A stretch of 28,376 nucleotides of DNA from IMG/VR virus record IMGVR_UViG_3300030685_000077, positions 1-28,376 of that record. One strand, given 5' to 3'. The position numbers were made by a program, and so were the translations under genes. The notes under the pieces were generated by a model. That model saw only the letters and a list, made by a program, of their open reading frames with translations, did not search any database and had not been told where the DNA came from. Source of the stretch: a virus. Positions 302 through 26,453 of this stretch are shown here, in pieces; position 1 is the first letter of the stretch, and each line of letters begins with the position of its first letter.

Positions 302-1597
302 ATGGCTAAGCTTGATAAAAATGCTAGAATTATAATAAAGAGAACAGATATACCTACATTAAGTGCAACAACAGCACCTAATGATGATCATACTTCAACT
401 CCAGCATGGGCTCCAACTGATGTTTATGTTGGAGAATTATTTCTTAATGAAGTAGATGAAAAATTGTGGATAAGAACAGATTCTTCTATACGAAGAATCT
501 TAATGGATAATGATCCTACTGGAGGAGGTTCCAGTGCGAATTTAGAATTTATTCCAAATTCTGGTCTTAAATATACTTCACTTTCTGCACAAACAATTTA
601 TAATACTACTATAAATTCATCATTAACTGTACCAACAAGTGTTGGTGGAATATCAGCTGGAACAACAGCTGGTAGTTTAGCCGGAAAATCATTAGTACAA
701 ATAGTAGACGCTCTACTTTTTCCTACAATACTATCAACATATACAATACCAGTAATCGGTATATCAAGTTCAATTGGTTTAATTCAAGAGATTGGATCTG
801 TAATTAGTCCTATTTTAATATTATCTGGACTCAAAAATGATGCTGGCTCATTTATATTATTAAATATATATAGAAATAGTAGTCTAATAGGAACAACATC
901 ATCACCAATTATTACATTACAGGGAAATATATCACCACAATTTGGCTATTCTGATGAAAATAATCCTAATTATAAATATGCTTTAAGCACAACAGATTTA
1001 AATTATACAATACCAATAGCTGTTGGTGAAAATCCAAGTACTACCATATATAATGGATCAGTGAATTATAATTCTGGTATACCTAAAAGAGATAATAAGG
1101 GTATTTATGATAATAGAACACCTGCAGTTAGAAGTATTAATGCTCCACAAAGTAGTTTATCTGGATTTATATCTAATAATATAACAATAAATGGTTGGTA
1201 TCCATATTTTTATGGTAAAACATCAAGCCAAAAATTAGCTTCAGATATTGTAGCAATAATTCAATCAGGTACATCAGGTAGTTCAGGAAGCTCAGGTAGT
1301 TCAGGAAGCTCTAGTTATACCAAAGTAGTAACAAGTGGTGGTGGAACAATAAATATGAATTTTGCTGCTGTTGGCGAATGGCCTTGGTTTGCTGTATTTA
1401 ATGGATTTACGACAAAAACAAAATGGACAGATTCTACAAATCCACTTAATAATGGTGATATTGGATTATTACCAACAGATTTATTTTCTGCTCCAACAAT
1501 ATTATCAATAATAAGTCCAGATGGATTATGGACTACAACATTTAAAATATATGTTGCACAATCTGTAACAACATTAGGTTTAACAGATATACGATGA
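302..1597 (+). CDS. Fibre-like virion protein, 431 aa, paralogue of the next gene's C-terminal half
   Basis: Probable tail-fibre or other surface-exposed structural protein. Residues 1-70 form an N-terminal domain with a GELFLNEVDEKLWIRT stretch, resembling the short beta repeats at the start of many phage fibre proteins. Residues 80-320 and 340-431 match residues 291-535 and 536-626 of the neighbouring 628-aa protein almost throughout; shared landmarks are FIPN-GL-YTSLSAQTI, NNPNYKY, NGWYPYFYGK, SGGGTINMNFAAV and EWPWFAVFNGFTTKTKW. At residues 323-338 a short G-X-Y run (GTSGSSG type) is inserted exactly at the junction of the two modules; the paralogue lacks it. The ATG at 302 follows an A/T-rich leader without a Shine-Dalgarno. 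No catalytic motif is visible. The fibre role is inferred from modular architecture and neighbours; the exact virion position is unknown. Confidence 0.75.
   Translation: MAKLDKNARIIIKRTDIPTLSATTAPNDDHTSTPAWAPTDVYVGELFLNEVDEKLWIRTDSSIRRILMDNDPTGGGSSANLEFIPNSGLKYTSLSAQTIYNTTINSSLTVPTSVGGISAGTTAGSLAGKSLVQIVDALLFPTILSTYTIPVIGISSSIGLIQEIGSVISPILILSGLKNDAGSFILLNIYRNSSLIGTTSSPIITLQGNISPQFGYSDENNPNYKYALSTTDLNYTIPIAVGENPSTTIYNGSVNYNSGIPKRDNKGIYDNRTPAVRSINAPQSSLSGFISNNITINGWYPYFYGKTSSQKLASDIVAIIQSGTSGSSGSSGSSGSSSYTKVVTSGGGTINMNFAAVGEWPWFAVFNGFTTKTKWTDSTNPLNNGDIGLLPTDLFSAPTILSIISPDGLWTTTFKIYVAQSVTTLGLTDIR
1268..1315 (+). repeat. Short collagen-like insert between two fibre modules
   Basis: A run of 9-base units of the ggtagttca type encodes GTSGSSGSSGSSGSSS at a domain junction. 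The homologous junction in the downstream paralogue (around residue 532 of the 628-aa protein) goes straight from one module to the next. This is a clean insertion or deletion of collagen-like repeat DNA. Confidence 0.85.
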
Positions 1598-1618: not shown

Positions 1619-3505
1619 ATGGCAATAAATTTATCTGATAATATACTATCTAAAACCACAAAACCAGCAGATGCTAAATATGGCCCATATTTAGGTCCTA
1701 CTTTAAATGATACAATTGATAATTGTCTGTTATATTTAGATTTATCATGGCGTTATGAAGGTTTGACTGTTGGACTTAAAGTAAATAGTGATGATATTAT
1801 AGAATATTGGTTTGTTGGTGGAATAGCCGATGAAAATTTAATTTTAAAAACTTTTGCTGGAACATCTGGAATTAATGGTACATCAGGTACATCTGGAATT
1901 AATGGTACATCTGGAACTAATGGTACATCAGGAAGTTCAGGAATAAGAGGAATATCAGATTTATATAGAGGTGTTTCTTTTGATACCCTCAATCTTTCTA
2001 TTTTATCAACTGGATTGACACAAATTATAACAACAACAACTGGATTGTCATATTCAGTTTATCAGAATATTATAGTGTCAACTACAGGAAATGCGGTACT
2101 TGGTTATGTAGAGTCTTATGCTTTTTTAACAGGAGAATTAACATTTTATATTACTGATATAATTGGAAGTGGAACTGCATCGAGTTGGGTGACAAATTTG
2201 AATGGCGCTGCTGGAGGCGATGGTACATCAGGAACCTCTGGAAGTTCTGGTATTAATGGTATATCAGGTAGTTCTGGTATTAATGGTACATCAGGTAGTT
2301 CAGGAACCTCTGGAAGTTCTGGTATTCGAGGCACTAACGGAACATCAGGAAGTTCTGGAATTAATGGAACATCTGGTAGTTCAGGTATAGATGGTACAGA
2401 TGGTATTGGAAATGATGGTACGTCTGGAACTTCTGGAACTAATGGAACATCAGGAAGTTCCGGGACAAACGGAAAAGACGGAACTAATTTACAATTTATT
2501 CCTAATACTGGATTAGAATATACATCTCTTTCTGCACAAACTATATTTAATGCAACATTAGATAGTGGATTACAAATGCCGGTAACAGTCGGTGGAATAG
2601 CGGCTGGAACAACGGCTGGTAGCTTAATGAATAAAACACTTGTAGGATTATTTAGTGATTTACTTTTTCCAACGGTTCAACCAACATATACATTACCAAC
2701 AATAATAATAACACCAAATCCTTTAATATATTCATATGAAGTTGGATCTATTATTAGTCCTATTTTAACATTATCTGGTACTAAAAATGATGCAGGTTCA
2801 TTTACATTATTGACAATATTTAGAAATAGTACATCTCAAATAGGATCATCATCACCAACAATAACATCACAACCAGATATAGCAGCACAATTTGGTTATG
2901 TTGATAATAATAATCCTAATTATAAATATACTTTAATTTATACTGATAATTATACGATACCAATAACTGCTGGTGAAAGTCCAAGTATAACTATATATAA
3001 TGGAACTGGATCATATAATTCAGGTTTAGTAAAAAAGGATAATAAGGGATCAAATGATGTTAGAACACCAGCAGTTAGAAGTATTAATGCAACACAAAGT
3101 AGTTCAACTGGATTTGCATCTAATAATATAATAATAAATGGTTGGTATCCATATTTTTATGGTAAAGAATCAAGTGTAAAAACAGCTTCAGATATCGTAA
3201 CAATAATTCAAACGGGTATTGGTTATACTAAAGTGGTAGCAAGTGGAGGTGGAACAATAAATATGAATTTTGCTGCGGTAAATGAATGGCCTTGGTTTGC
3301 TGTATTTAATGGATTTACAACAAAAACAAAATGGTATGAAAATGCTTTGAATAGTGGAAATATTGGTATTGACTCTAATGATTTATTTGAAGCTCCAGTA
3401 AACTTATCAATAATAAGTCCTGATGGATTATGGACCGCATCATTTAAAATATATGTAGCACATAAAATTACATCATTAGGCTCGACAGATATAAGAGTGA
3501 TATAA
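1619..3505 (+). CDS. Collagen-like tail-fibre protein, 628 aa
   Basis: Modular fibre protein. Residues 1-80 (MAINLSDNILSKTT...KYGPY...YRYEGLTVGLK-type) are an N-terminal module shared with the next gene, probably the attachment or oligomerisation end. Residues 81-112 and 197-290 are collagen-like G-X-Y repeats dominated by GTS, GSS, GIN and GTN triplets. Between them, residues 113-196 form a compact beta domain ending GSGTASSWVTNLNGAAG, which resembles a small domain I know from collagen-repeat phage fibres (pattern GSGT-SSW-VNL-G). Residues 291-626 match the upstream 431-aa protein. The gene sits 21 bases after the previous stop and 16 before the next start, so the three are probably co-transcribed. 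The start is ATG after an A-rich leader. Trimeric assembly is inferred from the G-X-Y repeats. No Pro-rich triplets are present, unlike animal collagen. Confidence 0.8.
   Translation: MAINLSDNILSKTTKPADAKYGPYLGPTLNDTIDNCLLYLDLSWRYEGLTVGLKVNSDDIIEYWFVGGIADENLILKTFAGTSGINGTSGTSGINGTSGTNGTSGSSGIRGISDLYRGVSFDTLNLSILSTGLTQIITTTTGLSYSVYQNIIVSTTGNAVLGYVESYAFLTGELTFYITDIIGSGTASSWVTNLNGAAGGDGTSGTSGSSGINGISGSSGINGTSGSSGTSGSSGIRGTNGTSGSSGINGTSGSSGIDGTDGIGNDGTSGTSGTNGTSGSSGTNGKDGTNLQFIPNTGLEYTSLSAQTIFNATLDSGLQMPVTVGGIAAGTTAGSLMNKTLVGLFSDLLFPTVQPTYTLPTIIITPNPLIYSYEVGSIISPILTLSGTKNDAGSFTLLTIFRNSTSQIGSSSPTITSQPDIAAQFGYVDNNNPNYKYTLIYTDNYTIPITAGESPSITIYNGTGSYNSGLVKKDNKGSNDVRTPAVRSINATQSSSTGFASNNIIINGWYPYFYGKESSVKTASDIVTIIQTGIGYTKVVASGGGTINMNFAAVNEWPWFAVFNGFTTKTKWYENALNSGNIGIDSNDLFEAPVNLSIISPDGLWTASFKIYVAHKITSLGSTDIRVI
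1859..1954 (+). repeat. Collagen-like G-X-Y repeat, first block of the 628-aa fibre
   Basis: It encodes residues 81-112, made of GTSGINGTSG-type triplets and built from near-identical 9-base DNA units (ggtacatca, ggaattaat). It links the shared N-terminal module to the small beta domain. Confidence 0.85.
2207..2488 (+). repeat. Collagen-like G-X-Y repeat, second block of the 628-aa fibre
   Basis: It encodes residues 197-290: mostly GSS, GTS, GIN and GTN triplets, with a few charged ones (GID, GTD, GKD, GIR). It links the small beta domain to the C-terminal modules shared with the upstream gene. Confidence 0.85.
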
Positions 3506-3521
3506 AAAACAGAATATAAAA

Positions 3522-6500
3522 ATGGCAATAAATTTATCCGATAATATATTATCAAAAACAACAGCACCTGTAGATACTAAATATGGACCATATATAGGTT
3601 CAACTATAGATATTTGTAAGAGTGCTGCGTTATCATTTTTAATTAGTGCGTATAGATATGAAGGTTTAACAGTAGGTTTAAAAGCTAGTAGTGCTGATAT
3701 TATTGAGTATTGGTTTGTTGGTGGTGTATCAGATGTTAATTTAATTTTAAAAACTTTTGCTGGAACATCTGGTAGCTCAGGTAGTTCAGGTATAGATGGT
3801 ATTTTTGGCGGAGATAGCCAACCATATACTTTTTTAACTGGTAATACAGCTTCTAATCCTGGATTTTCATATTTGAAATTTAATGATGTTAGTAATCCAA
3901 CAGAAATTTATATTAGTGATATTAATGGTGATAATGTAAATATAGAGTCTTGGCTTAATACTTTAAATGATCATGGTATGTCAAGAATTAGAATTTTTGA
4001 TAGAATTAATTCAAATATTTTTTATGTGTTCACATTAAATTCTATTACTCAATGGTCCGCATCATGGTGTACTTTAATAGTATCAATTGTGGATTCAAAT
4101 GGCACATTTACATTAAATGAAAATATAGTTCTAACTTACACAGAAGCTGGTAATGGTACATCTGGTAGTTCAGGTAGCTCAGGTAGTTCAGGTACTAATG
4201 GATCATCAGGTTCATCTGGTTCATCAGGAACTAGCGGTTCATCTGGATCATCTGGTGTTTTTGGTGGTGATAGTCAGCCTTATAAATTTTTAACAGGTAT
4301 AACTCATTCTGATCCAGGTTATACATATTTAAAATTTGATAATGATATAAATTTTTGGAACGTTTCAAAAATTTATATTAGTGAATTTAATGGTAATAAT
4401 ATTTATGTTGATGGTTGGTTGAGTAGTTTAAATACTAATGGAATATCAAGAATTAGAATTTATGATAATGTGAATTATGATAATTTTGTAATTTTTGAAT
4501 TGAATAATGGAATTGATCACGGCTCTTGGTTTGAATTTAGTGTTACATGGGTTGCATCTAATTCTACATTATTCTTATTGAATCATAATCTTGTTATATC
4601 TTATGTTGAAAATGGAACTTCTGGATCATCAGGTAGTTCAGGATCTTCAGGTAGTTCTGGCTCTTCTGGTACGTCAGGAAGTTCTGGTACTAATGGCACA
4701 TCAGGAACTAATGGTACATCAGGAAGTTCTGGAAGTTCTGGCACATCAGGAAGTTCTGGCACATCAGGAAGTTCTGGCACATCAGGAAGTTCTGGCACAT
4801 CAGGAACTAACGGCACATCTGGAACTTCAGGAACTTCAGGAACTAACGGCACATCAGGAACTTCAGGAACTAACGGTACATCAGGAACTTCAGGAACTTC
4901 AGGAACTAACGGTACATCAGGAACTTCAGGCTCTTCTGCTACTAACGGTACATCAGGAACTTCAGGCTCTTCTGCTACTAATGGTACATCAGGAACTTCA
5001 GGCTCTTCTGCTACTAATGGTACATCTGGTACTAATGGATCATCAGGTTCATCTGGAATTGGGACTAATGGTACATCAGGCATTAATGGTACATCAGGCA
5101 TTAATGGTACCTCAGGTATTAATGGTACCTCAGGTATTAATGGTACCTCAGGCTCATCAGGAACTGGTACAAATGGTACGTCAGGAACGAATGGCACGTC
5201 AGGTAGTTCTGGAATAAGTCCAACGACACCAGAGACTCAATTAACAGCTAGTACGGAGCAAGAATTAGTTAATGCTTGGGCTACAGCGGCACCATCTACC
5301 ACACCTTATAAAATTATAATATTAAGTGCTATCACCTTTACACAAAATAGAATATTTTCAGGTAACACTATAGCAATAAAAATAGAAGCTATAACAACTA
5401 AGAATTTAAATTTTGGATCTAATGCTGTTGTATTTACGAATCCGGTGTTTAATAACATAGCTTATACAACCACTGGATCATATTATTTAAGAATTTCTGG
5501 TGGATATGCCACTTTTAATAATTGTATTTGGGGATCAGATGTAAGAGAGGTTGATTCTTATAAAATAAATGTTATAGTAGATAGTGCAACTAATAATACT
5601 GGTGGATTAACTTTTTATAATCCAACACATTATACTTCAAGTTATGATTATAATTCTGGTTCTACTATTCAACCATTTTCTATTAGGAATGATGCAACGT
5701 TTAGTAGTGATTCCGCTAGATTATATGTTACTATAATAGAAATGGCATCTGTTTATGATTTTAAAAGGTTTTCAATAGTAAAATTAACTTCAACAATATC
5801 TGGTTGTCCATATTCTGTAACTGGTGATGAGACATGGTATTATCATTCAGCACAAGAATTACCTGGATCATCATATATTAAAAATACTGCATTAATTTTA
5901 AAACAGGCATCAATAGATAATTTAATGGCTGCTAGGTTAATTACTGATAATACCGCAACTTTACTTTTAGGTGTTGATTCCAATAATAATATTGTTCAAT
6001 TAAATAAAGCTTTATCAGGTAGTTCTGGAAGTTCTGGAATTAACGGTACGTCAGGAAGTTCAGGCACAAATGGAACATCAGGTACTAATGGTAGTTCAGG
6101 TAGTTCAGGCACAAATGGTACATCAGGTACTAATGGTAGTTCAGGTAGTTCAGGCACAAATGGTACATCAGGAACAAGAGGAACATCTGGTAGTTCTGGA
6201 ACATCTGGTAGTTCTGGAACAAATGGTACATCTGGAACTAATGGTAGTTCAGGTACAAATGGTAGTTCAGGTAGTTCAGGTGCAAATGGTAGTTCAGGTA
6301 GTTCAGGTAGTTCAGGTGCAAATGGTAGTTCAGGTAGTTCAGGTGCAAATGGTAGTTCAGGTAGTTCAGGTGCAAATGGTAGTTCAGGTAGTTCAGGTAG
6401 TTCAGGTAGTTCAGGTACAAATGGTACATCAGGGACAAGAGGAACATCAGGTAGTTCTGGAACATCAGGTAGTTCTGGAAATAATGGTGCTAATGGTACA

Positions 6501-7088
6501 AGTGGTACTTCTGTAACGGTGTCAGGTACAAATAATACAGTTGTTAAATTCACAAGTGTTTCAACTGTGGGTAATTCTATAATGACTGATGATGGAACAA
6601 CTGTAACTGTTAGTGGAAATTTAAATTTAAATGATAATTACAGTAATATAAGAACTATTTCGAATGGTTATTATGGTGGTGCTGTGCAATTTAAAGCAAA
6701 TAATAGTACTTCTGATAGATGGTCACGAATTGGAATGATTGATTCAACTGGAACTTGGATTGGTGGAATGACTATTGATAATAATTATAATGCAACTTTT
6801 TCAAGTTCTGTAACAGCAACCAACTTTATTTTAAGTTCAGATAAGAGAGATAAAACAAAAATAAAACCAATTGATTTAACCCCAATTGAAATAGAATATA
6901 AATCTTTTGAATTAAAAACAGAACCAAATATAACCAGATATGGTGTCATTGCTCAAACATTACAAAAGACCCATCCTGAATTAGTAAGAACTGCTGAAGA
7001 TGGTAAATTAAAAGTCGCGTATATTGACTTATTAATATACGAAATTGCTTCACTAAAAGAAGAAATTAAGAAATTAAAAAATAAATAA
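3522..7088 (+). CDS. Large collagen-like tail-fibre protein with C-terminal S74 chaperone, 1188 aa
   Basis: Trimeric-fibre-type protein. Residues 1-80 repeat the N-terminal module of the 628-aa neighbour. Residues 93-209 and 247-364 are two copies of one domain starting FGGDSQPY-F-TG, a type I know from collagen-bearing phage fibres (GDS-Y-F...EIYI...W...S-I-I). Collagen-like G-X-Y blocks fill 81-92, 210-246, 365-565 and 833-998. Residues 566-832 are a beta-rich region starting TQLTASTEQELVNAWATA, possibly a beta-helix receptor-binding head. Residues 1000-1104 are a stem region. Residues 1105-1188 are an intramolecular chaperone (peptidase S74) with SDKRDK matching the S-D-x-R-x-K autocleavage site (Ser1106, Lys1111), then GVIAQTLQKTHPELV and a terminal coiled coil (LKEEIKKLKNK). 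Cleavage before Ser1106 would leave a mature protein of 1105 residues. The stop abuts the next gene's ATG. Confidence 0.88.
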   Translation: MAINLSDNILSKTTAPVDTKYGPYIGSTIDICKSAALSFLISAYRYEGLTVGLKASSADIIEYWFVGGVSDVNLILKTFAGTSGSSGSSGIDGIFGGDSQPYTFLTGNTASNPGFSYLKFNDVSNPTEIYISDINGDNVNIESWLNTLNDHGMSRIRIFDRINSNIFYVFTLNSITQWSASWCTLIVSIVDSNGTFTLNENIVLTYTEAGNGTSGSSGSSGSSGTNGSSGSSGSSGTSGSSGSSGVFGGDSQPYKFLTGITHSDPGYTYLKFDNDINFWNVSKIYISEFNGNNIYVDGWLSSLNTNGISRIRIYDNVNYDNFVIFELNNGIDHGSWFEFSVTWVASNSTLFLLNHNLVISYVENGTSGSSGSSGSSGSSGSSGTSGSSGTNGTSGTNGTSGSSGSSGTSGSSGTSGSSGTSGSSGTSGTNGTSGTSGTSGTNGTSGTSGTNGTSGTSGTSGTNGTSGTSGSSATNGTSGTSGSSATNGTSGTSGSSATNGTSGTNGSSGSSGIGTNGTSGINGTSGINGTSGINGTSGINGTSGSSGTGTNGTSGTNGTSGSSGISPTTPETQLTASTEQELVNAWATAAPSTTPYKIIILSAITFTQNRIFSGNTIAIKIEAITTKNLNFGSNAVVFTNPVFNNIAYTTTGSYYLRISGGYATFNNCIWGSDVREVDSYKINVIVDSATNNTGGLTFYNPTHYTSSYDYNSGSTIQPFSIRNDATFSSDSARLYVTIIEMASVYDFKRFSIVKLTSTISGCPYSVTGDETWYYHSAQELPGSSYIKNTALILKQASIDNLMAARLITDNTATLLLGVDSNNNIVQLNKALSGSSGSSGINGTSGSSGTNGTSGTNGSSGSSGTNGTSGTNGSSGSSGTNGTSGTRGTSGSSGTSGSSGTNGTSGTNGSSGTNGSSGSSGANGSSGSSGSSGANGSSGSSGANGSSGSSGANGSSGSSGSSGSSGTNGTSGTRGTSGSSGTSGSSGNNGANGTSGTSVTVSGTNNTVVKFTSVSTVGNSIMTDDGTTVTVSGNLNLNDNYSNIRTISNGYYGGAVQFKANNSTSDRWSRIGMIDSTGTWIGGMTIDNNYNATFSSSVTATNFILSSDKRDKTKIKPIDLTPIEIEYKSFELKTEPNITRYGVIAQTLQKTHPELVRTAEDGKLKVAYIDLLIYEIASLKEEIKKLKNK
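4149..4259 (+). repeat. Collagen-like block between the two duplicated domains of the large fibre
   Basis: It encodes residues 210-246, made of GTSGSSGSSG-type triplets with a GTN. It separates the two FGGDSQPY-type domain copies (residues 93-209 and 247-364), so one domain-plus-spacer unit appears to have been duplicated. Confidence 0.85.
4614..5216 (+). repeat. Long collagen-like block with nested 18- and 36-bp tandem repeats
   Basis: It encodes residues 365-565, about 67 G-X-Y triplets. At DNA level it holds higher-order tandem arrays: three exact 18-bp copies at 4740-4793 (ggcacatcaggaagttct), three near-identical 36-bp copies at 4929-5036 (starting ggctcttctgctactaa), and four 18-bp copies at 5079-5150 (gg-attaatggtac-tca). 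This is the pattern expected from recent unequal recombination or slippage. In the 36-bp units the usual Gly is replaced by Ala (SSATNG), interrupting strict G-X-Y spacing. Confidence 0.9.
6018..6515 (+). repeat. Long collagen-like block before the stem and S74 domain
   Basis: It encodes residues 833-998. Between about 6241 and 6420 it is made almost only of the 9-mers ggtagttca and ggtgcaaat/ggtacaaat (GSS, GAN, GTN). Two copies of a GTRGTSGSSGTSGSSG segment (residues 884-899 and 972-987) show duplication of a larger piece. Confidence 0.9.
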
Positions 7089-9380
7089 ATGTCAGTACCA
7101 AATACGACAACATTTACTTTTCAAGATGTAACAACTGAAGTTTATAGTGATATTAATGTTGGAAGAAACTTAGTATCTGCTTTTGTTGATGCAACTGGAA
7201 CTTTTGATCCAAGTTATGTTGGTTCTAAAAATCAATTATTAAACTTTAGGAATTATTGTCAGCTTTCTATTTATTTAATTGCTGCAGGAAATGGTTATTC
7301 AATTTTTTATGGTAATAATTTAACATGGGGTTGGGGGTATAATACTTATGGACAAGTTGGTGATAATTCGATAATTAATAAACAAGTGCCAGTTTCAATA
7401 TTAGGCACTAAAAAAACATTTTTAAATATTGTTGCCGGTCAATATACTACAATAGGATTAGATAAAAATGGACAAGTTTGGGGTTGGGGTTATAATTATT
7501 TTACTGGTCAATTGGGAGATAATTCAACAATAAATAAATGTACACCAGTATCAATACACGGTGTTAAAAAAACATTTTGTAAAATTGATACTTGGTCTCA
7601 TACAATGGGTATAGATAATAGAGGTCAAGTTTGGGGTTGGGGTGCTAATTATCAATGTCAATTAGGAAATAATTCACAAATAAGAGAATGTACACCAGTG
7701 TCAATACATGGTACAAAAAAAACATTTTGTAAAATTAGTACTGGGCAATATCATACAATAGGAATAGATAAAAATAGTCAAATTTGGGGTTGGGGTTATA
7801 ATACTTTTGGTGAACTAGGAGATAATACACAAACACAACAATGTACACCTGTGTCAATACAAGGTACAAAAAAAACATTTTGTACAATTTCTACTAACAC
7901 GTATTTTACAATGGGTATAGACAATAGAGGTCAAGTTTGGGGTTGGGGTTATAATAATAATGGTCAATTGGGTGTTAATTCAATAATAAATAAATGTACA
8001 CCAGTATCAATACAAGGTACAAAAAAAACTTTTTGTAATATATCATCTGGATATAACTTTACAATGGGTATAGATAATGGAGGTCAAGTTTGGGGTTGGG
8101 GTTATAATTTCAATGGTCAATTAGGAAATAATTCACAAATAATAGAATTTACACCAGTGTCAATACATGGTACAAAAAAAACATTTTGTGAAATTAGTGG
8201 TGGAGATAGATTTTCACTAGGAGTAGATAATATTGGTCAAGTTTGGAGTTGGGGTGCTAATGATGCCGGTCAATTAGGTATTATGCTAAATAAGTGTACG
8301 CCAGTATCAATATCCGGGGTTAAAAAGACATTTTGTGAAATTAGTGGTGGAGATAAATTTTCAATAGGAGTAGATAAAAATGGTCAAGTATGGGGTTGGG
8401 GCTATAATAGTTTTGGTCAATTAGGAAATAATTCAACAATAGTTAAATATTCACCAGTATCAATATTAGGTGCTAAAAAGACATTTTGTGAAATTGTCGC
8501 CGGGTCAATAGGAATAGATAATCATGGCCAAGTATGGGGTTGGGGTTATAATAGTTATGGTCAATTAGGCGATAATTCAGTGGGGATTCATTGTACACCC
8601 GTATCAATACACGGCATAAAAAAGACATTTTGTAAAATTAGTTTCGGACAAAATTTTTCAATAGGAATAGATAAAAATGAACAGGTGTGGTGTTGGGGTT
8701 ATAATAGAAAGGGTCAATTAGGAGATAATACAAGCACAGAACAACATACACCAGTATCAATACACGGTGTTAAAAAAACATTTTGTAAAATTTGTGCCGG
8801 ATTAAATTTTATGCTTGGTATAGATAATATAGGTCAAGTTTGGGGTTGGGGTTATAATAATTATGGTCAATTAGGAAATAATTCAACAATAGATCAATGT
8901 ACACCAGTATCAATACAAGGTACAAAAAAGACCTTTTGTGAAATTCGTCCTAAAGCTTTATCTACTATTGGAATAGATAATTATGGTCAAGTCTGGAGCT
9001 GGGGACGTGGCATATACGGTCAATTAGGAAATAATTCAACAATAGATCAATGTACACCAGTATCAATACAAGGTGCTAAAAAAACATTTTGTAGAATTGG
9101 TAGTTTTGGTGAATCTACGATAGGAATAGATAATCATGGTCAAATATGGGGTTGGGGTTATAATAATTATGGTCAACTTGGAAATAATTCAATAATAAAT
9201 CAATGTACACCAGTATCAATACATGGTGCTAAAAAAACATTTTGTAAAATTTCACAAGGATGGAATCATGATATAGTAATAGATAATCATGGTCAAGTTT
9301 GGGGTTGGGGTTATAATTATCACGGTGAACTAGGAAACAATATTACTACTTATACTCCTCTTAAAGTTTCTTTTATTTAA
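7089..9380 (+). CDS. RCC1-repeat (beta-propeller) virion protein, 763 aa
   Basis: Residues 1-62 form an N-terminal domain (TTFTFQDVTTEVYSDIN...GSKNQLLNFRNY) that may be the virion anchor. From residue 63 to the end there are 14 RCC1-type repeats of about 50 residues. The consensus is GIDN-GQVWGWGYN-YGQLGNNSTI--CTPVSI-G-KKTFC-I. RCC1 repeats normally make seven-bladed propellers, so 14 repeats fit two propellers in tandem. Repeats 7 (AGQLGIMLNKCTPV) and 9 (EIVAGSIGIDN) are short by a few residues. From repeat 2 to 13 most repeats carry a Cys in the C-TPVS position and all carry one in KKTFC. The start directly follows the fibre gene's stop (no gap), suggesting coupled expression. A receptor-binding or adhesin role is inferred from position; RCC1 proteins in eukaryotes act as nucleotide exchange factors, which is unlikely here. 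Confidence 0.85.
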   Translation: MSVPNTTTFTFQDVTTEVYSDINVGRNLVSAFVDATGTFDPSYVGSKNQLLNFRNYCQLSIYLIAAGNGYSIFYGNNLTWGWGYNTYGQVGDNSIINKQVPVSILGTKKTFLNIVAGQYTTIGLDKNGQVWGWGYNYFTGQLGDNSTINKCTPVSIHGVKKTFCKIDTWSHTMGIDNRGQVWGWGANYQCQLGNNSQIRECTPVSIHGTKKTFCKISTGQYHTIGIDKNSQIWGWGYNTFGELGDNTQTQQCTPVSIQGTKKTFCTISTNTYFTMGIDNRGQVWGWGYNNNGQLGVNSIINKCTPVSIQGTKKTFCNISSGYNFTMGIDNGGQVWGWGYNFNGQLGNNSQIIEFTPVSIHGTKKTFCEISGGDRFSLGVDNIGQVWSWGANDAGQLGIMLNKCTPVSISGVKKTFCEISGGDKFSIGVDKNGQVWGWGYNSFGQLGNNSTIVKYSPVSILGAKKTFCEIVAGSIGIDNHGQVWGWGYNSYGQLGDNSVGIHCTPVSIHGIKKTFCKISFGQNFSIGIDKNEQVWCWGYNRKGQLGDNTSTEQHTPVSIHGVKKTFCKICAGLNFMLGIDNIGQVWGWGYNNYGQLGNNSTIDQCTPVSIQGTKKTFCEIRPKALSTIGIDNYGQVWSWGRGIYGQLGNNSTIDQCTPVSIQGAKKTFCRIGSFGESTIGIDNHGQIWGWGYNNYGQLGNNSIINQCTPVSIHGAKKTFCKISQGWNHDIVIDNHGQVWGWGYNYHGELGNNITTYTPLKVSFI
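7275..9377 (+). repeat. Fourteen tandem RCC1-type repeats
   Basis: Units of about 150 bp repeat with strong nucleotide conservation, each with a core close to ggtcaagtttggggttgg followed by ggttataat, and later acaccagtatcaataca. The similarity is high enough for homologous recombination between units to add or remove blades. Confidence 0.9.
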
Positions 9381-9478: not shown

Positions 9479-11080
9479 ATGTTACAAAAAGACAATTTAG
9501 TTTTAACTATCTCAATTGGCGCCTTTTATGAAAATTTAAGCATTACCACGTTACCATCAATTAAAAAATATGCAAAAAAAATAAATGCTGATTTTTTAAA
9601 TATCACAGAACATGATACAAATTATATCACTCAAAAATGGAATAAGTTTCATATTCACGAGCTTTTAAATAAATATAAAAGAATATTATACTTAGATATT
9701 GATCTTATTATTAGAGAAGACACCCCAAATATTTTTGATATTGTTCCTGAAAATAAGTTAGGGATGTTTAATGAGGGTCGTTTTTCACCAAGATTTGAAT
9801 ATATAGAACAAGCATCAGAATATTATAAAGAACCAATAAAAGTAAAAAAATGGAATGGTACATTTTATAATTCTGGTGTTATGGTAATATCTAGAATGCA
9901 TAAACAGATTTTTAAGTTGCCAAGAGGTTTTGATTTTGTTGAAACAGACCAGCCATTTATTAATCTTAGAATTATTAACGATAAAATTGACATGTTTGAT
10001 CTTGAATATAAATTTAATAGGATGGATATGTTAGATAAATTTATGGGAATTTCAAGACTTGATTCATATATTGTTCATTATGCTGGTGCACCAAAAGAAA
10101 TTCTTTTAGATGTTCTAAAAAAAGATATTGAACAATGGAAAATAGACTCACCAGAATATAATTATCAAAGAAATATATTAATATCTGTAACTGCAGGTAT
10201 GGGAGACCAACTTTGTGCTGAACCAGCAATTAGATATACTGAAAAATTATATCCAGATGCTAACATATTTGTTGTTACTCATTTTCCAAGATTGTTTGAA
10301 CATCTTGATATGCCAGTTTTCGATTATGATCAATGGAAAGGTATGCAAGATGCTGTAATCACAATGCATACTTGCCCAGATGATGAGCAAACTGAACATA
10401 AATTATCACACGTTCTTTTTCATCCAACAGATTTTGCAACAATGTCAATGATAAAAAGAACTATTCCAAACGAAGACAAAACTATTAAACTTAAACTTGA
10501 TGTTGAAGATGTTGCATCAGTTATTGATATGATGAAAGATAAGCCACATGATAAAAAAATGGTACTTGTTCATCCAGGAAAATGGTGGCCAAGTAAAACA
10601 TTTCCAATTGAGTGGTGGCAAAAAGTGATTGACGGCTTATCTGAAAAATTGTCAGTAGTTCTTATTGGTAAAACAATTGATGAAAAACAAGGTTATCTTC
10701 CAGTTACTTGCCCCCCAGGTGGTTATGATTTCAGAGATATAACAACATTAGGTGAACTTATTGCTCTTATATCATTATCAAAGGTGCTTGTAACTAACGA
10801 TTCATCACCTTTACATATTGCTGGCGCATTTGATAATTGGATTGTCGTTATGCCAACTTGTAAACATGCTGAGCATATACTACCATTTAGAAATGGCACA
10901 CAATCTTATAAAACAAGAGCAATGCAAAAATCTTTACTACTAGATGATCTTGAAATAAGACATACAGAATTTTATACAGATACTATTGATAAAATTCCAG
11001 AAGGTAAAACATTATATGATTATTTACCTGAACCAGAAGATGTTGTAAAAGAAGTTCTTAGAATATATGAAGAAGAATAA
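9479..11080 (+). CDS. Bifunctional glycosyltransferase: GT8-like domain fused to GT9 (heptosyltransferase-like) domain, 533 aa
   Basis: Two glycosyltransferase domains in one chain. Residues 1-205 are GT-A/GT8-like: the metal-binding DxD is in YLDIDLII (Asp73, Asp75), followed by FYNSGVMVI and a C-terminal IVHYAGAPK, where His-x-Gly-type residues usually close the site. Residues 230-533 are GT-B/GT9-like: ISVTAGMGDQL near the start (239-243), VLVHPGKWWPSK (363-373) and TNDSSPLHIAGA (439-450), the signature of ADP-heptose-type transferases. The fusion implies two successive sugar additions to one acceptor. Leucine CTT codons are visibly commoner in the second domain than in the neighbours, where TTA/TTG prevail. 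The gene overlaps the next start by 14 bases. The acceptor is unknown: fibre protein or host/virion glycan. Confidence 0.85.
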   Translation: MLQKDNLVLTISIGAFYENLSITTLPSIKKYAKKINADFLNITEHDTNYITQKWNKFHIHELLNKYKRILYLDIDLIIREDTPNIFDIVPENKLGMFNEGRFSPRFEYIEQASEYYKEPIKVKKWNGTFYNSGVMVISRMHKQIFKLPRGFDFVETDQPFINLRIINDKIDMFDLEYKFNRMDMLDKFMGISRLDSYIVHYAGAPKEILLDVLKKDIEQWKIDSPEYNYQRNILISVTAGMGDQLCAEPAIRYTEKLYPDANIFVVTHFPRLFEHLDMPVFDYDQWKGMQDAVITMHTCPDDEQTEHKLSHVLFHPTDFATMSMIKRTIPNEDKTIKLKLDVEDVASVIDMMKDKPHDKKMVLVHPGKWWPSKTFPIEWWQKVIDGLSEKLSVVLIGKTIDEKQGYLPVTCPPGGYDFRDITTLGELIALISLSKVLVTNDSSPLHIAGAFDNWIVVMPTCKHAEHILPFRNGTQSYKTRAMQKSLLLDDLEIRHTEFYTDTIDKIPEGKTLYDYLPEPEDVVKEVLRIYEEE

Positions 11081-11939
11081 AGTTACTATTCTGTTGACAA
11101 CTTGTGATAGATACGAAACAACTTTACCACTTTGTTTAATGTCAATTTTCAGTCAAACCTACTCTCCATATAGAGTAGTTTTGATTGATGATAGTAAACA
11201 AAAAAAATTTTATGATTTTCAAATATTAAAAAATATTTTAGTTTTATTCAAAGAAAAAAATATTGAATTTGATTATTTTTATGGTCAATGTAAAGGAGCT
11301 GTACCAGCTCTTCAGATAGGACTAGAAAATATAGAAGATGGTTGGGTTTTTAAAACAGATGATGATAATATTTTATCTAGTAATACATTAGAAATATTAG
11401 TTAAAAATATTAAGCCTAATATTGGTGCAATGTCAGGTATTATTATAGATAAATATTTATATTCATTTTATAAAGATAATCCTGATAAAAGGCCGAAGGA
11501 AGAAAATGGATATTATTCTAAAATAGAAAACATTTATTCAGAATTTAATATTCAAATGGTTCACGAACAATCAAAAGATATAAAAAAAGTAGAGCATTTA
11601 TATTCTAATTATTTTTTTAATAGAATTGTTGCTGATGATTATCCTTTAGAAATGTCGCCATCATCTCATAGAGAAGAAACAGTATTTACTTATAATATAT
11701 TTAGAAAAGGTTATGATTTAATTGTTATACCACAAGTTAAAATTTATCATCTTTATTTTGATCATAAATCAGGAAATCGTCAATGGACAAATTCTGATAG
11801 AAGAAAAAATGAATTATTTTTAGTTAAAAAATTAAAAGAATGGAATATTATTCCAGATAAAATGGAAATTTTTGATGATGGAGAAAAAATATTTATCACT
11901 AAAAAAGGCGTTGATTATTTGATAGTTTATGGAAATTAA
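11067..11939 (+). CDS. GT2-like (GT-A fold) glycosyltransferase, 290 aa
   Basis: Inverting family-2-type glycosyltransferase transferring a sugar from a nucleotide-sugar. The N-terminus VTILLTTCDRYETTLPLCLMSI is the usual first strand and helix, RVVLIDDS (Asp41/Asp42) binds the nucleotide, and WVFKTDDDNI (98-100) carries the DxD-type metal site. A later YHLYFDH at about 225-231 may belong to the acceptor side. There is no membrane segment, so it should be cytoplasmic. The start overlaps the preceding gene by 14 bases and the end overlaps the following gene by 11, indicating translational coupling within the glycan cluster. The sugar and acceptor cannot be read from the sequence. Confidence 0.82.
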   Translation: MKKNKVTILLTTCDRYETTLPLCLMSIFSQTYSPYRVVLIDDSKQKKFYDFQILKNILVLFKEKNIEFDYFYGQCKGAVPALQIGLENIEDGWVFKTDDDNILSSNTLEILVKNIKPNIGAMSGIIIDKYLYSFYKDNPDKRPKEENGYYSKIENIYSEFNIQMVHEQSKDIKKVEHLYSNYFFNRIVADDYPLEMSPSSHREETVFTYNIFRKGYDLIVIPQVKIYHLYFDHKSGNRQWTNSDRRKNELFLVKKLKEWNIIPDKMEIFDDGEKIFITKKGVDYLIVYGN

Positions 11940-12576
11940 TGGTAGAAATGTACAGGTTTTTTCTTGTTATATGAATAATATTCCTGAAAGAGTTGTTGAA
12001 TGTCAAAAGCAAGTTTTTGATACATTTAATATGGAATTGAACCAAGAATTTACAGATTTATCATTTCATCATGATTGGATGGATCAAAAAATAAAAAGTT
12101 TAGATTTTGATATCTTAATATTTTTTGATATTGATTGCATTCCATTAAAACCTAAATTATATGAATATATAGTTGATCAAATTTCAGATGATAATTCTAT
12201 TATAGGTGTTGAACAGGTAAATCAAACTAGAACTCCTAATTTTGTTTATGCTGCTCCAGCTTGTTTTGGAATAACAAAAAAAGTTTATGAAAAATTGAAT
12301 AGTCCATCTTTCAAATTGAGAGACGAATATGATTGTGGTGGTGAATTTAGTTGGGTTGCTCCAAAATATGGCGTGAATGTAAAATTATTTGAAATAACTT
12401 CGTCATTAAATAAAAAATGGAAATGTTTAAATAAACGGTATGGTAATGGTACAACATATGATGATTGGCTATATCATCAATTTGAAATACGATTTTTTGA
12501 TATTGCAACTCAAGATAAAATAAATGCATATCAATTTATTAAAAAATGTAAGGAAATAATTTTAAAATATAAATGA
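11929..12576 (+). CDS. Putative GT-A glycosyltransferase, 215 aa
   Basis: A short nucleotide-diphospho-sugar transferase-like protein. The strand-DxD motif is in ILIFFDIDCIPL (Asp67, Asp69), preceded by a region with HHDWMDQKI, typical of small GT-A enzymes. The C-terminal half has TYDDWLYHQFEIRF, which might supply the acceptor-side base. It is shorter than most family members but shows no frameshift. It overlaps the upstream GT gene by 11 bases and the downstream sulfotransferase by 4 (ATGA), so it belongs to the same operon. The family is called from the DxD context only, with less certainty than for the two upstream enzymes. Confidence 0.7.
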   Translation: MEINGRNVQVFSCYMNNIPERVVECQKQVFDTFNMELNQEFTDLSFHHDWMDQKIKSLDFDILIFFDIDCIPLKPKLYEYIVDQISDDNSIIGVEQVNQTRTPNFVYAAPACFGITKKVYEKLNSPSFKLRDEYDCGGEFSWVAPKYGVNVKLFEITSSLNKKWKCLNKRYGNGTTYDDWLYHQFEIRFFDIATQDKINAYQFIKKCKEIILKYK

Positions 12577-13280
12577 AGCCAATAATAGTAATAACTCACG
12601 AACGGTCAGGTACTCACTTGCTAATAAATTTAATAAATTATGATAAGAATGGAGAATTTCATACTATTGGTTTTATTCCACAGTCTATACCATATACTTT
12701 AGAAAACTATAAACATTATACATATAAAGATATTGTTGTTAATTCGTATATTGAAAATATAGTTTGTAAATCACATCATCAAGTTGAATTTGTTTTGTCT
12801 TATTTAGATTTTTTATTTGAGAAGTATAAAGTTATTTATTTAAAAAGAGATGTTAAAGATGTTTTGGTTAGTTATTATAAGTTTATACCATTTCCTAAAG
12901 ATTTAGATAGATTTCCAAAATTTGAAGATTGGATTTTTAGTAAACCTGATGATATTGGTAGAGATTTTTTGCTGCCATATTCACCAGATCCTCATGTTAT
13001 AATTGAGCCTGAAAATTATGTAAATAGGTGGAAATTACATATTGATGGATGGATGAAATATAAGGATAATATGCTTGTGTTGAATTATGAAGATATATTA
13101 TTAGATTTTAATAATCAAAAATTGATAATTGAAAATTATATTGGTAAAAAAATTGGGGATGTAATACCTAATGTTAATGATAAAAATTTACCAAATTTTA
13201 ATCCTGGTAAAGGCGTGGTTGGAGAATATAAGAATTGGATGTCTCAGGATTTGATAGATAAAATAAATTTATTGGTTTAA
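12573..13280 (+). CDS. PAPS-dependent sulfotransferase, 235 aa
   Basis: Transfers sulfate from PAPS to an acceptor, probably a glycan given its neighbours. The 5'-phosphosulfate-binding loop is HERSGTHLL near the N-terminus (residues 9-17), and the 3'-phosphate-binding strand is VIYLKRDVKDVLVSYYKF (87-104), with Arg92 and Ser100 in the expected places. The C-terminus has KGVVGEYKNWMS, matching the usual G-x-G-x-W-type PAPS loop of cytosolic sulfotransferases. No signal peptide or membrane segment is seen. It overlaps the preceding GT gene by 4 bases. The substrate is inferred from context: it may sulfate the sugar chain built by the three upstream glycosyltransferases. Confidence 0.82.
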   Translation: MKPIIVITHERSGTHLLINLINYDKNGEFHTIGFIPQSIPYTLENYKHYTYKDIVVNSYIENIVCKSHHQVEFVLSYLDFLFEKYKVIYLKRDVKDVLVSYYKFIPFPKDLDRFPKFEDWIFSKPDDIGRDFLLPYSPDPHVIIEPENYVNRWKLHIDGWMKYKDNMLVLNYEDILLDFNNQKLIIENYIGKKIGDVIPNVNDKNLPNFNPGKGVVGEYKNWMSQDLIDKINLLV

Positions 13281-13303
13281 ATTTATAAAAATAAAAATAA
13301 AAT

Positions 13304-13843
13304 ATGAATAAATTAAGTTTTTTTACACCACTAATGCACAAATATGAATATGAGTTTATTGAAAAATATTTGAATAAAGATGATATTTTTTTAGAATGGG
13401 GTTCAGGTAATTCTACCTTATATTTTTCTGGATTAGTAAAAAAAGTAATATCTATTGAGCATGATAAAGATTGGATTAATAATATTCAAATTGCTGTTGA
13501 TAATTACAATATAGAAAATATTGAATTGAATTATATTGCAGCACATACACCAGATCCAATTCCATGTAGATATGAACAATTTAAGAATTATATTGAATTT
13601 CCAAAAAATAATAATTTGAAATTTACTAAAGTGTTAATAGATGGAAGAGCAAGAAAATATTGTGCTAAAGCAATATATGATATGATAGATGAAAATGTTA
13701 TTGTAATGATACATGATTTTAATAGAGAAGATTATCAAATGACTTTAAAATATTATAATGTTATTGAGCAATTAACAGATGGTCAAGGAATTGTGGCATT
13801 AAAGAAAAAAAGTAAAGTAATAGAAGATAATAACTATTATTAA
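13304..13843 (+). CDS. Class I SAM-dependent methyltransferase, 179 aa
   Basis: The SAM-binding motif I is IFLEWGSGNSTLYF (28-41), followed by the acidic end of strand 2 in VISIEHD (48-54). Later landmarks are VLIDGRARKYCAKAIYDMI (about 109-127) and VIVMIHDFNR, as in small methyltransferases found beside glycosyltransferases. The protein is compact, with no extra substrate domain. It stands 23 bases after the sulfotransferase behind an A-rich leader (ataaaaataaaaataaaata), so it may be co-transcribed or have its own start signal. A sugar or protein O-methylation role is inferred from position at the end of the glycan cluster. Confidence 0.75.
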   Translation: MNKLSFFTPLMHKYEYEFIEKYLNKDDIFLEWGSGNSTLYFSGLVKKVISIEHDKDWINNIQIAVDNYNIENIELNYIAAHTPDPIPCRYEQFKNYIEFPKNNNLKFTKVLIDGRARKYCAKAIYDMIDENVIVMIHDFNREDYQMTLKYYNVIEQLTDGQGIVALKKKSKVIEDNNYY

Positions 13844-13927: not shown

Positions 13928-16900
13928 ATGATAAATCAGAAAAACACCTTTGTATCTTTTGCAGAACAATTAGCATTATTAAATAAGAATTCAATTGAAG
14001 TTATAACCAAATTAAATGATGTTGTAACTAATAGAAATTCGGTTGTTAGTGTTAATTTAATGAATAGTGATGGAACATCATCAACATATCAATTTCCAAC
14101 AGTTGGTCAATTAAAAAATGAATTAGATATCGCTAATAGAAATATTAGAAAACTAGCTGGTTTAGCAGACTCAACTGCATATGTATCAGATGGTACAACT
14201 ATGAGAAGGGTTTATGTTGATGACTTAAACCGTGAGCCAGATCCAATTGATAATTTAAATACAGTATCAAAATTTACATCAATTAATAATTCATTTTTTG
14301 AATCGTTGTCTAATCCTATGCTAGCGGTTGAACTTGATTTAACCGATCAAATAGATATAAAAGTTAATAAAGTATTATCTCGCAGATATATTATTAAATT
14401 TCAAAAAGATACATCTGGAAATTATACTACAGATGGTTTAACATCTAAAAAAGATTTTGAAAATAGATTTTTAAATAAAAATAATATAAGTATTGATGAT
14501 TTAACAACTTGGTATGGTAATCCAAAAAATTATGGTGTGATGTTTTCTAATCAGCCTTATGATGAACAGCAATTTGATTTAGATTATGAGAAATTACAAT
14601 ATTATGGTACTTTTGATGTTGTTGGCGTTGATAATGACACTATTAATAAAAAATTATGGTATGCGTTAGGTTCAATTACATATTACGATTATTCTGGTAA
14701 TACAAATACTTTAGCAATTGGTGATGAATTAATTATTAATAAAAAAAATTCATCAACAAAATGGAAAATTAAAGAGATTAGTACAGCTAAATCTAATTTT
14801 AGAGTTATTTTAGAAAGAACTGAAGGTTTAGAGCCTGTGCCAATTATTTCAAAAGCGTTAAAATTTTATAGTCCAACATTATCTAATAAATCAATTAAAG
14901 TGACAATTGGTTATGATGAATATAATGTAGTTTTTGTTAAGCCAATTAATACAGATTCTGGTATAGTAGCATCAACTTGGTCATATGGTACTTGTTTTTA
15001 TAGTAATGATTTAGTATTAGATACTAATAATACAGTTTCAATGAATAAATATTATAGTGAAACTGTATATGATTATGGATCAGTATTAAAGGATATGATT
15101 GTTAAAAATATTCCTAGTAAATTCGGTTCTACACCAAATGTTCTTACTTTAGATAGTACTAATTTTAAAGTTGTACAAATTAATACACATTTGACAAATA
15201 CTGCAAATTCAGCGAAGTTAAAAGCATTACAATCACAAAAAACATCTGTTAATTCACAATTAAGTCAATTGAATGACGCTATTACGCAAAAAACTAAGGA
15301 AGTTAGCACTAAACAATATAAATCGGTTTCTGATAAACAAGCTGCACAAAATCAATTAAATTCTTTAATTGATCAGCAAAATTCACAAACGAAATTATAT
15401 ACGTCTATTGTAAATAAAATTAGCGCAGAAAATACTGGATCATCTTCAACTGAAACACCAAAATTCAGAATTCGTGGATTTTGGAGTTTTCCAGCACCAA
15501 TTGTTGTTACAACATCAGGACAGCAACAAAAACAAGAGGTGATACAATTTAAGGTTCAATATAGATATAGCGCCAAAGGTGGTTCAGAACCCACCACAGA
15601 AGGTTTTAATTTAAACATGACACAAACAATTTATACAAATGCTACCTCAACTGGAGATGTCTTAGACCAATCTAAAGCATATACTAATCCTAGTGTTTCA
15701 ACTCAAAATTCAACTGTAACTGGATATTTTTCTAATTGGAATCAATTTTCAAGTGATGTAAGAGGAAGAACTTATAATAGTGCGCTAGATGTTTGGACTT
15801 GGAATGTGGAAGATGTTACTGATGCTAATGCTCCAAATATAAATCAATTAGATGTTTCAATACAGCAAAATGAAAAAGTTGATATTAGAGTTAAATCAAT
15901 ATCAGAAGTTGGTTGGCCAAATGCTCCTCTTGAATCTGATTGGAGTGATATATTAACAATAGAATTCCCAGATGATTTAGCACAAGTTGGTAATGATAGT
16001 TCTACTATTTTACAAAACGCACAAACTGATCAAATTTCATCTCAATTATTAAGTAATTTTAATTCTATGGGATTGACAACACATTTACAACAATCATATA
16101 ATGTTAATGATTTATATGTTGCACATCAAGATGTTAATTTGGGTACATCTTTTAAGGATGCCAATGGTAATGTCATTATGTTAAATGCTTATTTAAAATT
16201 ATTAACTGATAAAATATCAACACTTGAACAAACTATATTGCTTGCTAAAGGTGAACTTGTTGTTAAATTACTTAAAAATTCAAATGAAATTTTAATAGCA
16301 AATGGTGCTTCAGTTAATGTTGCAGTTCGTTGTGAAGAATATGCCACATTATTTGGCGGCACATCGAGAACTTATTATAATAATATTTATTCTATTGATG
16401 ATTATTATTTACAATTTGAAAATATTTCTACTAGTAACCAACTTGGTTTACTTTCATATAGAAAATACGTACCTTCTACAGTTGGTGATAATAGATTTTA
16501 TAATACCGCTATTGCAAATGGGTCATTAGCAGCATATGTTGATTCGTCTGATCAGTTAAATCAGCAAGTTGATAATCAATTTATTTGGGTATCTGATTCT
16601 TCTGGCACTGATCCTATATATAGATCCGGTTCTACTGTTGATGATAGAGGAAATTCACTTTATTCTAATAAATGGAATCTTGGTGTTGCATCTGGATCTA
16701 CAATTGATTTGTTTGACTCTACTGTAACTAGTGGTGTTAGTTGGACTGGATTGACAATTACTCTTCCTGATGCTAATTATCAATCTGATTTTCCTGTTAC
16801 TGTTCATCCATATATTGATAATATTAACAATTATGTATATTCAGATGTTGGTGGAGTTAAATTAATAAATGCTAGTACAAAATTCACATTACCAATTAAA

Positions 16901-17113
16901 ATTTTCTTTAAATTATCTGGTGGAACAAATGATAAAGTTACTTTTCCATCAACTTTATCAACATCAACCCCTGTAACTAGAAAATTAAGAATATTTTTAG
17001 AACCAGAAAATTTAAGTAGGCCATTTGAATTTGAAGTTAATTTTCAAATATTTAGAAATAAAACTTACACAACAAGAACTCTCAATAGCCCTAATACATC
17101 AACAATGCTTTAA
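13928..17113 (+). CDS. Large virion structural protein with coiled coil and FnIII-like domain, 1061 aa
   Basis: Probable baseplate or tail-associated structural protein; I do not recognise a specific family. Residues 1-110 are an N-terminal domain with RNIRKLAGLADSTAYVSDGTTMRRVYVDDL. Residues 115-420 are mixed alpha/beta. Residues 425-500 are a Gln/Ser/Lys-rich coiled coil (LKALQSQKTSVNSQLSQL...). Residues 510-682 begin FRIRGFWSFPAPIVV and end VDIRVKSISEVGWPNAPLESDWSDILTI, which looks like a fibronectin-III-type domain interrupted by an insert. A second coiled stretch (about 725-785) and a beta-rich C-terminus follow. There is no signal peptide or catalytic motif. The gene starts a three-gene run of structural genes; its ATG lies in the loop of a 13-bp inverted repeat. 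The baseplate assignment rests on size, architecture and position before uvsY, where T4 keeps the baseplate gene 25. Confidence 0.6.
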   Translation: MINQKNTFVSFAEQLALLNKNSIEVITKLNDVVTNRNSVVSVNLMNSDGTSSTYQFPTVGQLKNELDIANRNIRKLAGLADSTAYVSDGTTMRRVYVDDLNREPDPIDNLNTVSKFTSINNSFFESLSNPMLAVELDLTDQIDIKVNKVLSRRYIIKFQKDTSGNYTTDGLTSKKDFENRFLNKNNISIDDLTTWYGNPKNYGVMFSNQPYDEQQFDLDYEKLQYYGTFDVVGVDNDTINKKLWYALGSITYYDYSGNTNTLAIGDELIINKKNSSTKWKIKEISTAKSNFRVILERTEGLEPVPIISKALKFYSPTLSNKSIKVTIGYDEYNVVFVKPINTDSGIVASTWSYGTCFYSNDLVLDTNNTVSMNKYYSETVYDYGSVLKDMIVKNIPSKFGSTPNVLTLDSTNFKVVQINTHLTNTANSAKLKALQSQKTSVNSQLSQLNDAITQKTKEVSTKQYKSVSDKQAAQNQLNSLIDQQNSQTKLYTSIVNKISAENTGSSSTETPKFRIRGFWSFPAPIVVTTSGQQQKQEVIQFKVQYRYSAKGGSEPTTEGFNLNMTQTIYTNATSTGDVLDQSKAYTNPSVSTQNSTVTGYFSNWNQFSSDVRGRTYNSALDVWTWNVEDVTDANAPNINQLDVSIQQNEKVDIRVKSISEVGWPNAPLESDWSDILTIEFPDDLAQVGNDSSTILQNAQTDQISSQLLSNFNSMGLTTHLQQSYNVNDLYVAHQDVNLGTSFKDANGNVIMLNAYLKLLTDKISTLEQTILLAKGELVVKLLKNSNEILIANGASVNVAVRCEEYATLFGGTSRTYYNNIYSIDDYYLQFENISTSNQLGLLSYRKYVPSTVGDNRFYNTAIANGSLAAYVDSSDQLNQQVDNQFIWVSDSSGTDPIYRSGSTVDDRGNSLYSNKWNLGVASGSTIDLFDSTVTSGVSWTGLTITLPDANYQSDFPVTVHPYIDNINNYVYSDVGGVKLINASTKFTLPIKIFFKLSGGTNDKVTFPSTLSTSTPVTRKLRIFLEPENLSRPFEFEVNFQIFRNKTYTTRTLNSPNTSTML
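13942..13954 (+). repeat. Right arm of the 13-bp inverted repeat, inside the coding start
   Basis: aaacacctttgta encodes part of codons 5-9 (Lys-Asn-Thr-Phe-Val) of the 1061-aa protein and pairs exactly with 13846-13858. In mRNA the two arms could form a long-range stem that loops out the leader and start codon, provided transcription begins upstream of 13846. Confidence 0.8.
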
Positions 17114-17127
17114 AAATAACTATATGA

Positions 17128-20547: not shown

Positions 20548-20550
20548 TTT

Positions 20551-26078: not shown

Positions 26079-26453
26079 ATGAACAATAAAATACTTATAG
26101 TTGATGATGATTCTGATAGTTCAATAATTCAACAATCAATAGCCCAAAAATTAGGATATTATACTCAAGTTGCAATAAATGGAATTGATGCTATCACTTG
26201 TATTAGACAAGATTTGCCAGATATTATATTATTAGATATATTTATGCCACAAATGGATGGCTATGAAACTATTGAATATATTCAAGAGAATTTTAATATA
26301 CCTATTATAATTGTAACCGCTGGCGGAAATCAAATTGTTAAAAAGATTAAAGAAATGGGAATTTTATTTTATGTCCAAAAACCAATTGTCCCAAATAAAC
26401 TACAAAAGGAGATAAATCGTTGTATAAAATATTATGAAGATAAAAAAATATAA
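26079..26453 (+). CDS. Stand-alone CheY-type response-regulator receiver, 124 aa
   Basis: A single receiver domain with no output domain. All residues for phosphorylation are present: the acidic pair Asp9/Asp10 (ILIVDDDSDS), phospho-acceptor Asp53 (IILLDIFMPQMDG), Thr80 (IIIVTAGG) and Lys101-Pro102 (FYVQKPIV). Length equals one whole receiver. No histidine kinase is encoded nearby, so it would depend on host kinases or small phosphodonors. It could act as a phosphate sink or as a bait for host two-component or motility signalling; this is inference. The last 20 bases overlap the next gene, indicating translational coupling. The start follows a TATAAATA box. Intact catalytic residues argue against decay. 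Confidence 0.88.
   Translation: MNNKILIVDDDSDSSIIQQSIAQKLGYYTQVAINGIDAITCIRQDLPDIILLDIFMPQMDGYETIEYIQENFNIPIIIVTAGGNQIVKKIKEMGILFYVQKPIVPNKLQKEINRCIKYYEDKKI

Follow-up and report, generated by a model that had tools for sequence, protein, structure and literature searches.

The window, a complete viral contig of 28,376 bases and the whole stretch of DNA analysed here, carries a gene for an RCC1-repeat protein within a fibre and baseplate cluster, a position expected of a receptor-binding protein. The features of the cluster are as follows.

302-1597, plus strand: fibre-cluster protein of 431 aa, without Pfam or PHROG family
1619-3505, plus strand: collagen-like fibre protein of 628 aa, with PHROG tail fibre matches
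3522-7088, plus strand: collagen-like fibre of 1188 aa, with a C-terminal Peptidase_S74 chaperone (Pfam)
7089-9380, plus strand: RCC1 protein of 763 aa, with 14 RCC1 blades behind an N-domain (ORF, Pfam)
7089-7268, plus strand: N-domain, residues 1-60, phrog_21885-like, presumed attachment module, present also in other proteins whose genes come directly behind S74 fibre genes
7269-8309, plus strand: predicted first seven-bladed propeller, residues 61-407 (half-unit of strands b-c-d, units 1-6, strands d-a of unit 7)
8310-8330, plus strand: predicted junction of the two propellers, residues 408-414, within unit 7
8331-9377, plus strand: predicted second propeller of seven blades (residues 415-763), which strand a of unit 14 closes at the C-terminus
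9479-11080, plus strand: glycosyltransferase with two domains, GT8/GT9, conserved as a partner of RCC1
11067-11939, plus strand: family 2 glycosyltransferase (Pfam)
11929-12576, plus strand: cassette protein of 215 aa, no assigned family
12573-13280, plus strand: sulfotransferase (Pfam)
13304-13843, plus strand: methyltransferase-like protein, a conserved cassette member with no more than a weak Pfam match
13928-21276, plus strand: three presumed baseplate/tail proteins (13928-17113, 17128-20547, 20551-21276), with relatives in 460-735 kb phages

The 763-residue protein contains 14 W[GSC]WG anchors between residues 80 and 738, spaced by 51 residues except at unit 7 (49) and unit 8 (48), and its full RCC1 units are mostly 50-77% identical to each other in amino acid sequence. 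In Pfam it matches WD40_RLD (RCC1-like domain; E 4e-153) and the RCC1 family (E 5e-112, 13 stretches), and at the DNA level 14 matches to RCC1 (PF00415) were detected, every one above the curated cut-off. A tandem array with a period of 153 (score >1400) covers 7326-9341. The RCC1 array is real and exceeds chance by far. It consists of 13 complete units preceded by strands b-c-d (residues 61-83) and followed by a lone strand a (residues 754-759); the half-units at the two ends jointly make one further blade, giving 14 blades. The original prediction of fourteen RCC1 repeats at 7275-9377 after a short N-terminal domain is borne out, with the refinement that the fourteenth repeat is assembled from two half-units; the coordinates are correct, the N-terminal domain is about 60 aa long, and the gene itself starts at 7089.

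The presumed baseplate proteins share about 40% identity with their counterparts in a 735-kb phage and are related more distantly to those of Lak phages, indicating that the phage of the window is probably huge. The window is therefore probably a fragment of a huge phage, presumably with a host of the Bacteroidota type. RCC1 was not found in the 735-kb phage and its kin, despite the baseplate proteins in common. Elsewhere in the window, a stand-alone response-regulator receiver domain is encoded at 26079-26453.

Number and arrangement of the blades

The number of regularly spaced RCC1 units, determined by anchor counting, was compared among 101 dereplicated clusters of relatives. Seven units were present in 63 clusters, 14 in 21 and 21 in one; the remainder had 6 (11 clusters), 13 (2 clusters) or 5, 8 and 12 units (one each). 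Proteins of about 557 aa have 6 regular units, representing either a true six or seven with one degenerate. The count of 8 in proteins of about 385 aa was a register artefact, anchor counting giving 7. With 14 units, half-units at its ends and relatives at 7, 14 and 21, the window protein agrees with RLD propellers, in which the units are counted by sevens and the ends are split-blade (Velcro) ends. Proteins with 21 units, presumably triple propellers, are encoded at L039:4392-7682 and L048:2582-6076, and two RCC1 proteins, one of 14 and one of 7 units, are encoded on a bacterial chromosome contig of Flavobacterium stagni (L169).

The fourteen-unit proteins show a break in the middle. The lowest-scoring inner unit is unit 7 or 8 in 10 of 15 such proteins (binomial 2e-5), which are partly related, the signal holding by permutation also across 8 groups. 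In the window protein, the d-a loop (from W.WG to TP) is 19 residues long in units 7 and 14 only and 21-22 residues in all others; the L015 proteins show a similar shortening. AlphaFold2 with aligned input of 16 sequences gave a model with 14 four-stranded blades (pLDDT 80.3, pTM only 0.57), in which strands b-c-d (61-83) are followed by full a-b-c-d units and a lone a (754-759). The least confident inner stretch of this model, residues 391-420, is the predicted junction region, and the N-domain, with pLDDT below 50, is effectively unmodelled. A single-sequence run (pLDDT 41.5) was discarded, and a second alignment, with N-domain fragments added, placed the N-terminal half-blade wrongly and was left out of folding.

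Taken together, the quantisation at 7, 14 and 21, the break at unit 7/8 and the loop shortening at units 7 and 14 indicate that fourteen is seven plus seven, and the double beta-propeller of the original prediction, for which a structure prediction had been proposed as a check, is strongly supported by sequence, in line with the 14 four-stranded blades of the model, as a prediction of two successive seven-bladed rings. One large ring of fourteen blades, or an open solenoid, is extremely improbable: such a ring could in principle be closed by the half-units at both ends, but the relatives, including lone 7-unit proteins, are quantised by seven, and the break at unit 7/8 carries a terminal-like loop.

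Exceptions with 12 or 13 units were identified in L014, L047, L058, L155 and L159. Between near-identical RCC1 genes (L013:1225-3447 and L014:1472-3541, L044 and L047, L049 and L058), the difference is exactly one whole unit or two; L014, as compared with L013, lacks one 153-base unit between identical repeats. The 12- and 13-unit genes may reflect either genuine loss of units or collapsed assemblies.

Presumed fibre attachment, the glycosyltransferase cassette and diversification

The start codon of the RCC1 gene in the window abuts the stop codon of the upstream S74 fibre gene. Its N-domain groups with phrog_21885, and the search for the same N-domain at other fibre loci, suggested together with the original prediction, was positive for L031-L035 and for Cellulophaga phage phi17:1. 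At all five loci with upstream DNA (L031-L035), the reading frame of the N-domain protein starts at an S74 fibre gene's stop codon and the C-terminal part after the N-domain varies from locus to locus, while in phi17:1 the N-domain protein follows a fibre-repeat protein. The module is thus common to fibre-associated proteins at the same gene position, as would be expected for a receptor-binding protein, and from these sequences the N-domain would appear to serve for attachment, with heads that can be exchanged.

Downstream, a cassette of RCC1, GT8/9 and methyltransferase-like genes is conserved (9479-13843 in the window; L012, L013, L037, L039 and L135-L164). An RCC1 gene lies upstream of GT8/9 in 34 of 35 homologs with at least 73% identity and room upstream, many of these loci being near-identical so that the independent number is smaller than this ratio implies. 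The usual order is collagen-like fibre, a protein of about 120 aa, RCC1 and GT8/9, then usually the methyltransferase-like gene; a sulfotransferase is present in some, and otherwise the gene neighbours differ among the phages having the cassette. The RCC1 proteins of the related cassettes have an N-terminus different from that of the window protein, indicating that attachment is not one conserved mechanism.

Within these related cassettes, RCC1 diverges faster than its neighbour genes, again as expected of a receptor-binding protein. RCC1 identity was below that of GT8/9 in all 66 pairs compared, with medians of 55% for RCC1, 87% for GT8/9 and 91% for the methyltransferase-like protein, and it ranged from 49 to 82% in pairs with GT8/9 above 90%. 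In the close relatives L009-L011, the RCC1 gene is identical to that of the window; the fast change is therefore seen in other lineages only.

The mode of change can be followed in L037:1851-4046 and L013, of which GT8/9 is 99% identical. The best unit matches between the two RCC1 proteins are non-collinear, and units 2 and 4 of L037 are 100% identical in DNA, a pattern that, as judged from the sequences, is one of blade shuffling at constant blade number. The substitutions are mainly in the b-c (0.46) and d-a (0.39) loops. Between the blades of the window protein, the loop entropy is 2.14 bits for b-c, 1.19 for d-a, 0.94 for c-d and 0.70 for a-b, the difference between d-a and c-d being modest. 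By strand order, the b-c and d-a loops are assigned to one face. No reverse transcriptase indicative of a diversity-generating retroelement was found in 12 RCC1-bearing records, mostly fragments.

RCC1 proteins of other phages and the proposed role

The best PDB sequence matches of the window protein are UVR8 (E 4e-37), HERC2 and RCC1. With the eukaryotic RCC1, UVR8 and HERC2 RLD (PF00415, PF25390) it shares the repeat family, a unit of about 51 residues and an expected seven blades per ring, but it differs in having two rings in tandem, a fibre locus, a fibre-type N-domain and no known exchange-factor partner. Ran, the GTPase partner of RCC1, has no known counterpart in bacteria.

The T7-like tail fibres of Pseudomonas phages PollyC and SeaP1-4 consist of a conserved N-terminus followed by an RCC1 head. 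Sequences matching this N-terminus occur in 61 phage records, often under a tail fibre or tail fibre assembly annotation; PF03906 in PollyC scores 23.1 bits, slightly below the cut-off of 25.2. The first 300 aa or so are 95-100% identical among these fibres, whereas the RCC1 heads are 31-43% identical between two types, and four of the phages have one host in common. A stretch of about 37 residues is duplicated in tandem in the RCC1 head of SeaP1 (L121:2675-5377), but not in SeaP4. These fibres resemble the window protein in combining a conserved anchor with a hypervariable RCC1 head in the position of a tail-fibre gene, and differ from it in their single propeller, divergent units and long, different anchor. 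RCC1 genes also follow fibre genes, in fibre loci, in phages S-SRM01, LIBA6276 and BUCT-ZZ01. Synechococcus phage S-SRM01 (L115/L119) has three RCC1 genes behind its long tail fibre gene, accompanied by genes for a 2OG-Fe(II) oxygenase, a sulfotransferase, a glycosyltransferase and an epimerase.

Other known systems resemble the window gene in part. The phrog_21885 fibre partners (phi17:1 gp62, L030-L035) have the same N-domain directly after the fibre gene, but with a small unrelated C-terminal domain in place of RCC1. In T-even phages, gp38-type adhesins are variable tip proteins encoded right after the long tail fibre gene; the window RCC1 protein would work like these, given its gene position, its fold being different and no sequence relation being claimed. 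The proteins of phAPEC6, the 121Q/PBECO4 group, GAP32 and W70 are likewise of the RCC1 family, but are single propellers of about 40 kDa, often encoded in gene arrays. What is new here is the double propeller in a fibre-tip position, the kinds of component being already known.

The original prediction stated that RCC1 proteins as receptor-binding candidates of phages are little described, and rightly so: the papers found deal with chromosome or DNA condensation only, and our literature search found none that proposes host binding by phage RCC1 proteins. In RcGTA, rumen-phage and several other papers, "RCC1" is a strain or gene number and not the protein.

We consider it likely that the window protein is a two-propeller virion adhesin, attached to the fibre and a candidate binder of the host surface; its most likely role, as we read the combined evidence, is that of a fast-changing receptor-binding adhesin at the fibre tip. 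Its location in the virion is suggested by the fibre locus, the N-domain, the RCC1 heads of PollyC and SeaP, and mass spectrometry of other phages' virions. The N-domain (1-60) would attach the protein to the product of the gene immediately upstream, the collagen-like fibre processed by S74, and residues 61-763 would fold as the two successive seven-bladed propellers, each Velcro-closed by strands b-c-d from its own start and strand a from its own end. The face carrying the b-c and d-a loops would vary among the blades, the opposite face less, and this variable face, with 14 blades in total, may recognise a ligand on the host surface, most probably a glycan. In relatives the gene is altered through recombination between blades, the blade number being kept at 7n, and the co-inherited downstream cassette may serve to decorate either fibre or adhesin, or to change the glycan of the host.

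Three other roles were weighed. RCC1-family proteins have been detected by mass spectrometry in virions of GAP32 (as reported in PMC5259590), of phAPEC6, for which the authors propose a DNA-ordering role (PMC7247149), and of W70, for which a role in encapsulating DNA is suggested (PMC11370258). These proposals, and the filing of the phage RCC1 families phrog_7220, phrog_4219 and phrog_16766 by PHROGs under DNA, RNA and nucleotide metabolism, favour an internal virion or DNA-binding protein that aids genome condensation. We regard such a function as quite improbable here: RCC1 heads are found on T7-like tail fibres with fibre-like hypervariability, RCC1 genes sit in fibre loci, and fast divergence would not be expected of a DNA condenser. 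The PHROGs label is probably a mislabel. The same virion data argue against action inside the infected cell, in fibre folding or assembly or in host manipulation, as do the gene position directly behind the S74 fibre and the N-domain in common. Eukaryotic RCC1 propellers are intracellular regulators, in agreement with such action, which we nevertheless judge very improbable for the window protein.

A virion-exposed protein could also serve other than as the primary receptor binder, either as a secondary adhesin, or a decoration, directed to mucus, exopolysaccharide or the environment, or as a scaffold glycosylated by the cassette. The tight linkage to GT8/9 is in line with this role, as is the occurrence of sulfotransferase and glycosyltransferase genes near RCC1 in cyanophage S-SRM01 too; on the other hand, the fusion to a tail-fibre anchor in PollyC and SeaP speaks for a primary role, in those phages at least, and the diversification pattern fits receptor recognition. 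We therefore take the secondary role to be unlikely and retain the fibre-tip receptor-binding adhesin.

More broadly, and tentatively, since we judge the generalisation to fall a little short of evenly balanced, phage RCC1 propellers may be a widespread, overlooked receptor-binding module of one, two or three rings, in which whole blades are shuffled inside the gene while their number stays fixed and no retroelement takes part, and which in one lineage goes together with a dedicated cassette of glycosyltransferase, methyltransferase-like protein and sulfotransferase. Should phage RCC1 proteins prove to be surface adhesins, their repeated misannotation as regulators of chromosome or DNA condensation, in PHROGs and in papers that found them in virions, would be set right, and receptor-binding scaffolds of a new class would be recognised, whose specificity would be changed by swapping blades while the ring size stays fixed. 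For huge environmental phages of unknown host, this would supply a testable candidate for host recognition.
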